Shown here: positions 7,205 through 10,989 of the stretch, piece by piece
Position numbering within the stretch: position 1 is the stretch's first letter
How the letters are laid out: each line of letters starts with the position of its first letter
From: Candidatus Venteria ishoeyi
GTDB taxonomy: Bacteria > Pseudomonadota > Gammaproteobacteria > Beggiatoales > Beggiatoaceae
Assembly (NCBI RefSeq): GCF_030378065.1
Contig: NZ_JAUCGJ010000004.1
Span: 1 to 64,000 of the forward strand
Direction of reading: 5' to 3'
Length of the DNA: 64,000 bases
The notes under the pieces: model-generated
Databases searched by the model: none
What the model was told of the DNA's origin: nothing
Seen by the model: only the letters and a program-made list of their open reading frames with translations
Made by a program: the position numbers and the translations under genes

Positions 7205-8770
7205 ATGAAACCAACCTGCCGCCCATTAACACTAATAATTATGGATGGTTGGGGTTATTCTGAGCAAGCTGAGTATAATGCCATTGCCCAGGCAAATACA
7301 CCGGTTTGGGATCAGTTATGGGAAAGCAATCCCCATGCTTTTCTGGATGCTTCCGGGTTTGCCGTTGGCCTGCCGGAAGGACAAATGGGTAACTCTGAAG
7401 TCGGGCATCTCAATCTGGGTTCGGGACGCGTGGTCTACCAGGACTTTTCACGTATTGGTCAGGAAATCAAAAACCAGCGTTTTAAGCAAAATCCGGTACT
7501 CCAGCAAGCAGTCAAAGCCGCCACTGAACAAGGTAAAGCCGTGCATATCATGGGTTTATTATCCCCTGGCGGCGTACATAGCCATGAAGATCATCTATTT
7601 GCCATGCTTGAGCTTGCCGTGCAACAAGGCGCGGAAAAACTCTACCTGCACGCATTTTTGGATGGGCGTGATACGCCACCGCGTAGCGCAAGCAACAGCG
7701 TAAAACGTGCGGAAGAATTATTTAAGCGTCTGGGTACAGGGCGCATCGCCTCTTTAGTCGGGCGTTATTACGTCATGGACCGGGATAAGCGCTGGGATCG
7801 GGTGCAGCAAGCCTATAATTTACTAACCTGCGGCATTGCGCATTACCACGCAGATACAGCACAAGAAGCCTTGGCGCAGGCCTATGCGCGTCATGAAAAT
7901 GATGAGTTCGTAAAACCCAGCCTGGTGGGAGAAACGGTACGGATTGCCGATGGTGATGCGGTGGTTTTTATGAATTTCCGTGCTGATCGCGCCCGGGAAA
8001 TCAGCCGTTGCTTTCTGGAACAGGATTTTAAAGGCTTTGAGCGCCAGTGCCAGCCTAAACTCAGCCAGTTTGTCTCTCTGACACAATATCAGAAAAGCCT
8101 TGACTGCGCAGTGGCTTATCCGCCTGAGCAATTACCGCAAGTTTTAGGTGAAGTGTTATCCAACGCGGGTATGCGTCAGTTACGCATTGCTGAAACTGAA
8201 AAATACGCGCATGTTACCTTCTTTTTTAATGGTGGAGAAGAAACCGTTTACCCCGGTGAAGATCGGGTTTTGATTCCTTCGCCAAAAGTGGCAACTTATG
8301 ATTTGCAGCCGGAAATGAGTGCCATCGAAGTCACCGATCATCTGGTTGCTGCGATAGAACGTATCCACAGCCAGCCCGATCAGGCTTACGATGCCATTAT
8401 TTGTAATTTTGCCAATACTGATATGGTGGGGCATACCGGCAATATAGACGCAGGTATTAAAGCTGTGGAAACCATTGATCACTGTCTGAGCCGAATTCTG
8501 AAAGCCAGCGCCAAAGTCGGTGGTGAAATGCTGATTACCGCCGATCATGGCAATGCAGAAAAAATGTTTGATCCCGACTCCGAACAAATGCACACCGCGC
8601 ATACCAGCAACCTGGTACCTTTCGTGTATGTCGGGCCGCGCCAGACTGAGGTGAAATCCGGGGCATTAAGCGATGTTGCGCCAACCATACTGACGCTGAT
8701 GGGCATGGATATTCCCGCAGTCATGACAGGCCATAGCCTGGTTTCACTGATTAAAGCAGCTAAGGAATAG
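7205..8770 (+). CDS. gpmI: 2,3-bisphosphoglycerate-independent phosphoglycerate mutase
   Basis: This cytoplasmic glycolysis/gluconeogenesis enzyme interconverts 3- and 2-phosphoglycerate and is a Mn-dependent member of the alkaline phosphatase superfamily. At 521 residues it is the normal length. Asp14 sits in IIMDGWG. The phosphoserine nucleophile is Ser64 in [20 protein letters not shown]. The substrate loop [12 protein letters not shown] and the metal-binding [11 protein letters not shown] and [11 protein letters not shown] motifs are all present. The ATG follows AAGGAATT. It is a single gene with its own likely promoter upstream, and a degenerate repeat copy lies just behind its stop. Confidence 0.97.
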
Positions 8771-8786
8771 TCAGTAAATAACTAAC

Positions 8787-8872
8787 GCACTTATCTTTTT
8801 ATCCGGCTTCTGCGTTGTGTAAACAGTTACATAGCTCACTATGCGCCTGTTTCCACCAGGCCTTCCAGGTTT
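8787..8872 (+). repeat. Degenerate partial copy of the dispersed repeat
   Basis: Only the core remains: a TTTTTATCC stretch, GCGTTGTGTAAACAGTTACATAG, a CACTATGCGCCTG arm and a CAGGCC arm. Both terminal inverted repeats are lost. It starts ~16 bp after gpmI and can still fold into a hairpin, so it may act as a weak transcription end. A short GGCTGTCCGAGAACA motif follows at 8882-8896. Confidence 0.55.
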
Positions 8873-8912
8873 TAAACTAGAAGGCTGTCCGAGAACAAGC
8901 TAATAAACTTTA

Positions 8913-8921
8913 TGCTATATT
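8913..8921 (+). promoter_or_regulatory. Possible promoter of the tRNA-like gene
   Basis: TGCTATATT forms an extended -10 about 67 bp before the tRNA-like sequence. No clear -35 is visible at 17 bp. It would also serve the downstream 622-residue protein. Confidence 0.3.
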
Positions 8922-8987
8922 ATTAAACGTGGGCAAACGGCGTTCCTTAACACTTCTGAATAAAGTATTTACGCCCCGCCCGCGCCT

Positions 8988-9100
8988 GGGGAAGTAGCTC
9001 AGTCTGGTAGAGCACCGTATTACTCTCCGCCGATGGCACCGAGAGTTCCTTAACAGGCCTCTTAAGCCGGTGGTCGCAGGTTCAAATCCTGCCTTCCCCG
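8988..9100 (+). tRNA. tRNA-like gene with about 39 extra bases in the anticodon region
   Basis: The acceptor arms GGGGAAG (8988-8994) and CTTCCCC (9093-9099), D arm (GCTC, AGTCTGGTA, GAGC) and T arm (GCAGG, TTCAAAT, CCTGC) are perfect. The total is 113 bases instead of ~74. Between D and T arms, CACCG pairs with CGGTG, but inside lie two hairpins: ACTCTC/GAGAGT with a 13-base loop, and CTTAA/TTAAG. If the ~39 bases were absent, the best cloverleaf would read loop CTCTTAA with anticodon CTT (Lys) and stem GCCGG. However, the discriminator G is not typical for Lys, and CCA is not encoded. It could be an interrupted tRNA, a tRNA-derived RNA or a pseudogene. Confidence 0.55.
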
Positions 9101-9120
9101 CAATTATTAAGGGGATAGCT

Positions 9121-10989
9121 ATGGATGCCGTATTACGATTATTTAACGCGATTCAGGTTGAAAACAAGCAACCGCAGGATATGCCAGAGTCCGTTTTGGC
9201 GCGAACACTCAAAAACGGTTATGTCCTCGATCCCGCTATCCATCCAGATGCCTGCTTACTGGAGACTATTGAGCGCATCATCGGATTTTCCGGCGAAAAA
9301 GCCAATGCCGCTTTCCATAAATCCTGGAAAGTCATTCAGGAATCCTCAATAGAATCACTGGTTGTTCAGCAACTTATCCACTATGTCACCACCTATGGCT
9401 TTGAATCGCTCGGCCTGTATCAGCAGGATAGGGTTTATATTCCCCACGAAAAATTAGCGATTCCCGCGCTCAAAGACGATATACCCTTAATTATGATTAA
9501 GGCGATGGATGCCAATGAAATTCTTAATGCAATTATTGATTTGGCTTCAGGTATTGCACTGTCCCAGGCAACGCTGGATGACATGATGGCAATTGTCGCA
9601 GCCAATGCTTACCAACAAACTTTTATCGAAAAAATACAAAACCGTGAATTAAAAGCCTTGCTTTACGACCACTATGGCATTGTGCCGTCCGATCCAGAAG
9701 AATTTCTGCGGCATCTGCTCAGTAAACTGACGGATGAATCCCTGCTCATCAAGAACAATGCCTTGATTGAGAAAATCAAAAGCGCAAATGGCAAATTTTT
9801 AGATGAATTATTGAAAAATGCACCGGACAATCTGGCAGCTATTTTCTTCCGCTTCAAACCCCTGTTCCTGGCGATGAAGTCCATCTCGCGTAATAAGTCA
9901 TTTTTCAACCACTTGCGCAAGCAGGCAAAGCATTTACATCGTCCGCTCCCGGTGGACTACCTGAATAGTATAACTGCCCAAATCAAGCAAAATACTTTAG
10001 ATTTGAACAGGCTTGCGGCTGTTTTGAACAAAGCCCCCATTTTCCGTAAAATCCGTCTGGCCTATGCGCTAAACCACCGTCTTCATGCGGGAAATTCCAT
10101 TGTTTACCGTGTGCGTAATGGTCGAGGCTGGGCCACTGAATTTGACTGGTCGGACACGCTGGAACAAACAACACAACAAGCGCTTGATACGGTGCTTGCC
10201 GCCATCACCGATGAACTGCGCAAAAATCTTGAAAACAAGCTGATTTATATCCCGGAACACGTTCATTACGCCCTGCCAGCAACAGAAAAACAATTTACCG
10301 GCAACCTGCCCACAGGTACTTATGTTGCAGTGCCACAGGATTTGATTGTCGGTATCCACTGGGTGAATAGCAAAAATCGGGTTGATCTGGATTTATCTGC
10401 GATTGGTCTGAGTGGTAAGACTGGCTGGGACGCGGCCTATCGCTCGGATAAGGCTAATCTGCTGTTCTCCGGCGACATGACCGATGCCCCGCCACCACAC
10501 GGGGCTTCTGAACTGTTTTATATCAAAAAAAATATCGGGGAAGCCAAACTATTGATGGTGAATTATTTTAATTTCAACAAAGGCGATGAGGTTAGAATGA
10601 AAATACTGGCTGCCCGTGAGATGGCGAAGAAATTTGGTGAAAACTATATGGTAAACCCCAATAATATCGTTACCTGCACTGAGCTTAATATCAGTAAAAA
10701 ACAAAATGTAATCGGCTTGATTGTAAATATAGATAATGAAAATCGTATGTATTTTGCCAATATCAGCATTGGCAATTCCATTACCGCCAGCCATAATCCA
10801 CACACCACCTATGCCCGTGAGTATTTATTCCACAGCATGGTTTATACGCTGGATTTTAGAACCATTCTGCGTATGGCAGGAGCATCTGTGCTTGATGAGA
10901 AACCAGAGGATGATGGATATATCGACCTGTCGCCGGAAGCATTGGATAAGACGACAATTATTAACTTAATCAACGCATCAGGCCGATAA
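9121..10989 (+). CDS. Unrecognised 622-residue protein downstream of the tRNA-like gene
   Basis: The start is the ATG at 9121, preceded by AAGGGG. A longer frame back to 9070 reads through the tRNA T arm and is rejected. I do not recognise the family. The first ~330 residues are mostly helical, without signal peptide or membrane segments. From ~395 on the protein turns strand-rich (GTYVAVPQDLIVGIHWV, VDLDLSAIGLSG, LFSGDMTDAPPPHGASELFY). Its acidic, short-strand style faintly recalls TerD-type beta sandwiches, but I could not confirm that. It is probably cytoplasmic. It is convergent with menI and may share a transcript with the tRNA-like RNA 20 bp upstream. Confidence 0.75.
   Translation: MDAVLRLFNAIQVENKQPQDMPESVLARTLKNGYVLDPAIHPDACLLETIERIIGFSGEKANAAFHKSWKVIQESSIESLVVQQLIHYVTTYGFESLGLYQQDRVYIPHEKLAIPALKDDIPLIMIKAMDANEILNAIIDLASGIALSQATLDDMMAIVAANAYQQTFIEKIQNRELKALLYDHYGIVPSDPEEFLRHLLSKLTDESLLIKNNALIEKIKSANGKFLDELLKNAPDNLAAIFFRFKPLFLAMKSISRNKSFFNHLRKQAKHLHRPLPVDYLNSITAQIKQNTLDLNRLAAVLNKAPIFRKIRLAYALNHRLHAGNSIVYRVRNGRGWATEFDWSDTLEQTTQQALDTVLAAITDELRKNLENKLIYIPEHVHYALPATEKQFTGNLPTGTYVAVPQDLIVGIHWVNSKNRVDLDLSAIGLSGKTGWDAAYRSDKANLLFSGDMTDAPPPHGASELFYIKKNIGEAKLLMVNYFNFNKGDEVRMKILAAREMAKKFGENYMVNPNNIVTCTELNISKKQNVIGLIVNIDNENRMYFANISIGNSITASHNPHTTYAREYLFHSMVYTLDFRTILRMAGASVLDEKPEDDGYIDLSPEALDKTTIINLINASGR

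Follow-up and report, generated by a model that had tools for sequence, protein, structure and literature searches.

As passages of one published account describe it, the tRNA-like domain of the RNA YrlA is modified by tRNA enzymes, its stem binds Rsr, and PNPase is placed at the tRNA-like end (PMC8394870). In some bacteria YrlA lies in an rtcBA operon, and Hughes et al. have proposed that its tRNA-like domain may competitively inhibit an anticodon nuclease (both from parts of PMC7790460). In the Rfam model of YrlA (RF02553), the D arm comes late and the T arm early, so that the closing stem contains a permuted tRNA.

At the exon joints of archaeal BHB introns, two 3-nt bulges lie around a 4-bp helix. 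The tRNA genes of algae and archaea include circularly permuted ones, with swapped halves, and intron-containing ones, with a short structured insert in the anticodon arm (passages of PMC3978253). As described in part of another report, Listeria phage CKA15 carries an Rsr-like gene (detected by HHpred) with three highly transcribed and unexplained RNAs nearby, which its authors regarded as possible Y RNAs (PMC12282133). In addition, the tRNAs of phages are more and more often interpreted as protection from tRNA-cutting enzymes of the host, and evasion of anticodon nucleases has been proposed or shown in sections of two papers (PMC10264068, PMC11555353).

Here, we analysed a locus of Candidatus Venteria ishoeyi within a stretch of 64,000 nucleotides (hereafter the window), which contains a tRNA-like RNA with an insert in its anticodon arm, two copies of a conserved stem element and a gene for a partner protein. 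The features are as follows.

8930..8982, forward strand: element copy 1, an open hairpin (type A); 49.6 bits with our covariance model of the element (R1), for which this copy was one of the 39 building rows; predicted fold -15.5 kcal/mol
8988..9100, forward strand: tRNA-like RNA whose anticodon arm is longer by 39 nt (type B); 53.3 bits with the Rfam tRNA model; same plan at seven other loci
9017..9055, forward strand: 39-nt insert between tRNA nt 28 and 29; read from the sequence
9020..9052, forward strand: element copy 2, inside-out, UUA-CUCUC-C-GCC-(GAU)-GGC-ACC-GAGAG-UUCCUUA; from pattern scan and consensus
9056..9070, forward strand: anticodon stem-loop GGC-CTCTTAA-GCC-GG, reading Lys CTT; read from the sequence
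9121..10989, forward strand: gene of the partner protein, 622 aa; supported by homologues and an AlphaFold model (pLDDT 84.8)

Rather than a damaged tRNA gene, the locus seems to encode an RNA-protein particle that is based on tRNA mimicry and has not been described before. Our main reading, to which we give a probability of roughly 0.57, is a Y-RNA-like tRNA-mimic ribonucleoprotein that occurs chiefly in phages and, in this case, in a bacterial chromosome, for which we infer binding of the RNA by the protein and a decoy or quality-control function.

Like YrlA, the system combines a closing stem with a tRNA-like part, and in 12 phage forms the D, T and acceptor arms are permuted. It differs from YrlA in the conserved sequence of the stem, in a partner with a TerD-like C-terminal domain, and in its arrays with anticodon arms and other pieces. 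The window form departs further from YrlA: its arms follow the usual tRNA order, its acceptor end is open and its stem element lies within the anticodon arm. One may regard the window RNA as the YrlA plan turned back to normal order, the closing stem now being an internal hairpin. Permuted forms in the two loci tested matched the YrlA model with E values of 8.3e-7, 1.1e-6, 1.2e-6 and 0.0037; one of these four matches spans the whole model and three cover the tRNA-like part only, which any permuted tRNA might match. The best scores were 37.5 bits (L083, E 8.3e-7) and 37.0 bits (L091), against a gathering score of 69, which was reached in none of 31 sources; the window RNA scored 14.6 bits. The system resembles the algal and archaeal genes in having swapped tRNA halves or a short structured insert in the anticodon arm; unlike them, the element is tied to one protein family and many copies lack a full tRNA. 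By description, it is also close to the CKA15 arrangement of a phage gene with an Rsr-type match, which is weak here, and RNAs nearby.

The window RNA and the stem element

The initial annotation had proposed a tRNA-like gene with perfect acceptor, D and T arms and about 39 additional bases. This description holds: the acceptor (GGGGAAG/CTTCCCC, 7/7), D stem (GCTC/GAGC, 4/4) and T stem (GCAGG/CCTGC, 5/5) are fully paired, and the excess is exactly the 39 nt of 9017-9055. The comparison with a tRNA covariance model that it had suggested gave an end-to-end match of RF00005 to 8988-9100 (53.3 bits, gathering score 29, E 1.3e-8), and ARAGORN called no tRNA at these positions. The Lys(CTT) arm expected when the insert is left out is likewise present, as GGC-CTCTTAA-GCC-GG directly after CC. 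On the other hand, only one of the two extra hairpins described there is extra, namely the element hairpin at 9020-9052; the other is the anticodon hairpin itself (GGC-CTCTTAA-GCC, 9056-9068). The fold of the whole RNA beat all of 200 dinucleotide shuffles (z -2.66). In isolation, the minimum free energy structure pairs the anticodon arm differently from the arm as drawn here, and the latter therefore rests on comparison with relatives and not on a single fold.

The 622-aa gene starts 20 nt 3' of the tRNA-like RNA. Upstream of the locus lies a phosphoglycerate mutase gene (Pfam), and other neighbours are presumably a pyrophosphatase-like gene upstream and menaquinone-type genes downstream, so that the neighbourhood has an ordinary look. 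Scans of 8760-9130 for sigma-70 promoters and intrinsic terminators found nothing.

The element has two strands, X with the consensus p1-ANN-s1(5)-UUCCU[A/U]A and Y with the consensus UA-s1'(5)-C-p1'. Where X comes before Y (type A), the intervening loop is open to cargo; where Y comes first (type B), a loop of a few bases caps the p1 end and the element sits as an insert within a tRNA. One copy of each type is present in the window. Its type A copy reads GGGC as p1, the bulge AAA, a 5-nt s1 and UUCCUUA, followed on the other side by UUA, s1', C and GCCC, and its loop is AACACTTCTGAATAAAGTATT.

To assess pairing, X strands were located by their sequence constants and the first downstream Y-like site was taken, with no complementarity required. 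Among 116 X sites in 38 loci, 106 had a Y-like site, giving 88 distinct pairs. All four variable inner positions were complementary in 60 of these (500 shuffles: mean 14.0, maximum 25), and the four outer positions in 73 (shuffles: mean 20.4, maximum 32; one position is nearly fixed by the search pattern), where the shuffles leave the relatedness of the sequences in place. In an alignment of 39 short hairpins, 10 of 10 pairs changed on both sides, with a covariation score of 0.773 vs 0.286 after shuffling; these rows had been preselected for pairing, and the test on 88 pairs is the fairer one. Judged from sequence comparison, the element is a real, covarying RNA structure. In the titles, starts of abstracts and passages of the literature that was searched, nothing was found that describes it.

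Several known classes of insert were considered and rejected. An archaeal-type BHB intron does not fit by inspection of the internal loops: unlike in the BHB, a 3/1 internal loop is followed in the element by 5 bp and then by UUCCUWA/UA, which forms a 7/2-3 internal loop. For a group I or II intron the insert has only 39 nt, and no Rfam intron model matched 8700-9300 up to E 10. Known small ribozymes gave no Rfam match at the window.

Co-occurrence of the element with a protein family

We searched 39 loci carrying homologues of the partner protein (39 sources, 401,669 bases, both strands) with R1. The model gave 114 matches in 37 of the 39 loci, all on the strand of the gene; 39 of these matches are the training rows, and three loci repeat others. 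With approximate gene ends, 95 matches lie upstream of the gene, 19 downstream and none inside it. The distance to the gene was at most 300 nt for 70 of the 95 upstream elements, and 30 of the 37 loci had an element within 300 nt of the gene start. R1 found no element at L104. Genome G016 (L062) encodes a distant homologue and an insert-bearing tRNA-like RNA, but it has no element at the R1 threshold.

Most loci with homologues are on IMG/VR contigs, which are predicted viral (7 and 24 loci in these searches, one of them shared). Homologues were also present in three phages represented by five GenBank records, namely the cyanophages S-CRM01 and S-CBWM1 and the phage Phass-1, and in MAGs of Desulfobacterales and of Candidatus Albibeggiatoa, the latter belonging to the family of the window's bacterium. 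Among bacterial genomes, 3 of 42 in the family of the window and 3 of 274 in its class had a homologue, both counts including the window's own genome. The plasmid search returned one weak Streptomyces match, which was unannotated and had no element.

The reverse search, in which the element patterns alone were used on viral contigs, gave 34 stretches (3 by the type B pattern and 32 by the other search, L113 being in both). The protein was present in 23 of them, on the same strand in 23 of 23. For 4 of the remaining 11, the protein was elsewhere on the same record, and for 7 of the 34 there was no protein on the record, which may be a fragment; five of these seven hold tRNA genes. Some of the stretches are not independent: four of the 23 (L121, L131, L135 and L138) are on contigs already found by the protein (L097, L095, L087 and L083, respectively), and L132 is on the same record as L128. 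Among the loci as a whole, L092 repeats L091, L096 repeats L081 and L112 repeats L111, and L072 and L073 are near copies. The type B pattern match at L113 consists of two neighbouring type A hairpins and has no tRNA insert.

Strong element matches among the 42 family genomes were restricted to G000 and G005, both with the protein, and among 398 genomes of the phylum to the window's own genome, with one marginal match in G468; these scans applied strict filters, with 137 (family) or 14 (phylum) candidates scored per genome, and their absences are weak. Marginal element matches (E 0.007-0.008) were seen in G001, G033 and G468.

The proteins of the Albibeggiatoa and Desulfobacterales MAGs are 65-66% identical to that of the window, a similarity that suggests transfer of the protein between distant bacteria. 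In the AlphaFold model, a helical N-terminal part (about 1-370) is followed by a TerD-like C-terminal domain (Z 11.4, 145 aligned, about 404-564). The full model had weak fold matches to Ro60 (9nf8, Z 4.2, 286 aligned) and Rsr (2nvo, Z 4.1, 212 aligned), and Foldseek placed Rsr at rank 4 (E 0.046). When the N-terminal part was folded alone, Ro60 and Rsr were absent among the matches listed, and the link to Ro therefore stays weak; the TerD match at 404-564 also leaves little room for a C-terminal vWA domain of the Ro60/Rsr type. It is plausible that the partner works like a Ro particle, and that it is a Ro protein is unproven.

By sequence, the window protein matched no model in Pfam, PHROGs (3 proteins searched) or PADLOC (4 proteins searched), and a PDB sequence search gave no match. 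Among 26 members of the family, Pfam gave no match to TROVE, and 13 unrelated families were hit once each (E 0.0025-0.094). NCBIfam NF041916 (the MXAN_6230/SCO0854 'RING' family) matched window residues 395-465 weakly (E 5.4e-7) and the G016 homologue well (E 7.9e-51), all of its matches being far under the curated cut-off of 600 bits. No paper naming SCO0854 or MXAN_6230 was found in the literature searched.

tRNA pieces held by the element and readings of the window RNA

Many phage contigs carry the system in or beside tRNA clusters. In phages, many element loops hold tRNA pieces: permuted tRNAs, in which the 3' half precedes the 5' half with a short linker in between, as well as T arms, a D arm together with an anticodon arm, or anticodon-type stem-loops. 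For the loop statistics, 76 of 125 listed type A pairs were retained (loop of 9-45 nt, stricter pairing, and in the window only near 8900-9100), as the full listing includes some chance pairs within coding sequence, four of them in the window. Anticodon-like hairpins (stem of at least 4, U33, purine at 37) occurred in 15 of the 76 short loops, compared with 2.0 in dinucleotide shuffles (maximum 6), and 52 of the 76 had none even at a stem of 3. The second loop set was weaker, with 8 of 63 vs 2.4 (maximum 8), and at a stem of 3 with 14 vs 6.7 (maximum 15). The loop of the window's type A hairpin (CUGAAUA) is not anticodon-like by this definition.

In the 12 permuted forms, the T stem is paired 5/5 throughout and the acceptor 7/7 in 10 and 6/7 in 2; at least L084 2156, L098 3818 and L129 2422, whose D arm is off the pattern, were left out of this set. 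Seven of the 12 give a perfect 5-bp anticodon stem and a 7-nt loop when the halves are joined at about nt 28/29, a position with a one-base ambiguity in most cases, and the insert of the window RNA breaks the tRNA at that same position within a base or so. The completed anticodons are those of Asn, Thr and Ile in the permuted forms and of Lys in the window RNA.

A search for homologues with the same insert, also suggested by the initial annotation, turned up seven other loci at which the same arm of a tRNA-like gene carries an insert, six by Rfam match (L068, L069, L070, L079, L085 and L062, the last with a diverged insert) and L111 by reading of the sequence, its repeat L112 not being counted. 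We know of no insert-free version of any of these eight interrupted genes. At many other loci only hairpins occupy the position of the tRNA-like gene, and ordinary tRNA genes lie near some element arrays (e.g. tRNA-His at L077 3660-3730). In G005 (Candidatus Albibeggiatoa, same record as L069), a tRNA-like RNA with two inserts stands at the homologous gene with another hairpin upstream. In the Desulfobacterales MAG (L068), the tRNA-like RNA has one insert and two hairpins beside it, and the arm with the insert folds into one uninterrupted, lengthened helix, which takes in the anticodon region and leaves no anticodon loop.

The initial annotation had offered an unusual interrupted tRNA, a tRNA mimic tied to the downstream gene, and a non-functional chimera. 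The second fits best in view of the close co-occurrence of element and gene, and the third is disfavoured by an insert that covaries and is shared with other genomes. The type A copy at 8930-8982 was overlooked in that annotation, and the recurrence in phages lay beyond what the sequence by itself could reveal. In the tRNA-mimic particle that we prefer, the protein encoded at 9121-10989 would recognise the covarying stem element, a putative step supported by their co-occurrence. The element holds out a piece of tRNA, as the sequence shows for part of the copies: in the window it forms part of the anticodon stem of an RNA that keeps its D, T and acceptor arms intact, with another, free hairpin ahead of it, and in phages it closes permuted tRNAs, stem-loops of anticodon type, T arms, or a D arm with an anticodon arm. 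The complex would present these tRNA mimics to tRNA-acting enzymes. Its most likely role would be that of a decoy for, or a platform to capture, tRNA-cutting toxins and defence nucleases, or alternatively that of a platform for tRNA quality control and repair. Through the hairpin in the 5' leader, the protein may in addition control its own production.

If this is true, an element that displays parts of tRNA, together with one undescribed protein family, would be a new component of the conflict between phages and hosts over tRNA, and a route by which Y-RNA-like particles pass between phages and bacteria. The purpose of tRNA mimicry by Y RNAs would become a testable question, and since the cyanophages S-CRM01 and S-CBWM1, with recorded Synechococcus hosts, carry the system, it could be tested in culture. 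Element and protein are also blind spots of annotation, the interrupted form of the window having been missed by ARAGORN.

An unusual interrupted tRNA is a rather doubtful description of the window RNA, although it can point to the CCA in three relatives with an insert and in some permuted forms. In this alternative, the element would be the end of a new kind of tRNA intron in interrupted and permuted genes; either the protein or a nuclease of the host would cut it, and a ligase such as RtcB would join the halves into a functional tRNA. We regard this alternative as unlikely for the system as a whole. It draws on the perfect 5-bp stem and 7-nt loop that seven of the 12 permuted forms and the window RNA complete across about nt 28/29. 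A CCA follows nt 73 directly in two of the 12, the second form of L083 (3819) and the first form of L084 (2018), and also in L084 2156 and, by eye, in L098 3818; these four are the strongest candidates for genuine permuted tRNA genes. Among the insert-bearing relatives, L069, L070 and L079 encode CCA, and for L079, omission of the insert after U33 gives, by reading, Gly(UCC) with U73 and CCA. The genome of the window has a single RtcB, on a contig other than that of the window. Against splicing, ten of the 12 permuted forms lack CCA after nt 73, eleven have linkers of 6-9 nt and ten have extra closing pairs, and many elements hold only a stem-loop or fragment, from which splicing would yield no tRNA. 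The window's own genome has an ordinary tRNA-Lys(CTT) (L003), and CCA is encoded by 40 of its 42 other tRNA hits but not by the window RNA. The ordinary tRNA-Lys(CTT), the missing CCA and the continuous helix of the L068 arm thus favour mimicry for the window RNA, whereas the splicing reading stays alive because permuted forms complete the anticodon arm exactly and some of them encode CCA. A more specific version, in which such genes of phages and bacteria depend on the element and a phage protein, are spliced at 28/29 and are hidden from host anticodon nucleases until joined, seems to us improbable to a like degree; to our knowledge, no class of tRNA genes that depends on such an element and protein is known in bacteria or phages.

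It is quite improbable that the hairpins and the tRNA-like RNA are only cis elements of a leader, through which the protein or factors binding uncharged tRNA control the downstream gene. The tRNA-like RNA of the window ends 20 nt before the ATG, and the proximity of most upstream elements to the gene, all on its strand, agrees with such a role. However, 19 of the 114 elements lie downstream, and others are found inside phage tRNA arrays with the gene elsewhere on the record or absent from it. That the locus is a remnant, in which both a tRNA gene and a mobile insert have decayed, is scarcely credible, since the rejection by ARAGORN and the missing CCA are set against intact arms, a covarying insert and the same plan at seven other loci.

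Other observations at element loci

Several loops and neighbourhoods have additional features. At L091 3012-3123, a complete tRNA in normal order is contained in an element loop, and ARAGORN reads a four-base anticodon (ggaa). Loops with just a D arm and an anticodon arm were seen at L119, L120, L125, L127 and L132, the first four of which are among phage tRNA genes. The string [A/T]TGG occurs in 26 of the 76 short loops (e.g. L072 3857, L075 3940, L087 3795 and L101 7830), which is above mononucleotide shuffles (mean 7.0, maximum 15) but not above dinucleotide shuffles (mean 20.1, maximum 29).

In G016, the genome of the distant homologue, the tRNA-like RNA at L062 3119-3234 (minus strand) retains UUCCUUCA in its diverged insert, and a hairpin upstream of it carries the same string. 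At the Desulfobacterales locus, the upstream flank of the RNA and protein has genes for a Band-7/SPFH protein, RtcA and RtcB (L068 583-4659), and the downstream flank has a tRNA array with an HNH-like gene (L068 11364-13836); the RtcA, RtcB and Band-7 neighbours point to RNA repair. A 59-nt match to the tRNA model at G000:C97:10866-10924 (44.2 bits), without CCA and missed by ARAGORN, may be another tRNA-like remnant.

Beside arrays on phage contigs and in Phage Phass-1, tmRNA matches were found (L083 616-1039, L098 334-757, L103 9458-9896 and L076 6060-6184, the last covering only 125 nt vs 374 model positions). A Hatchet ribozyme (86.7 bits) is located upstream of the array and protein gene on related phage contigs, at L093 3141-3278 and L099 571-708.
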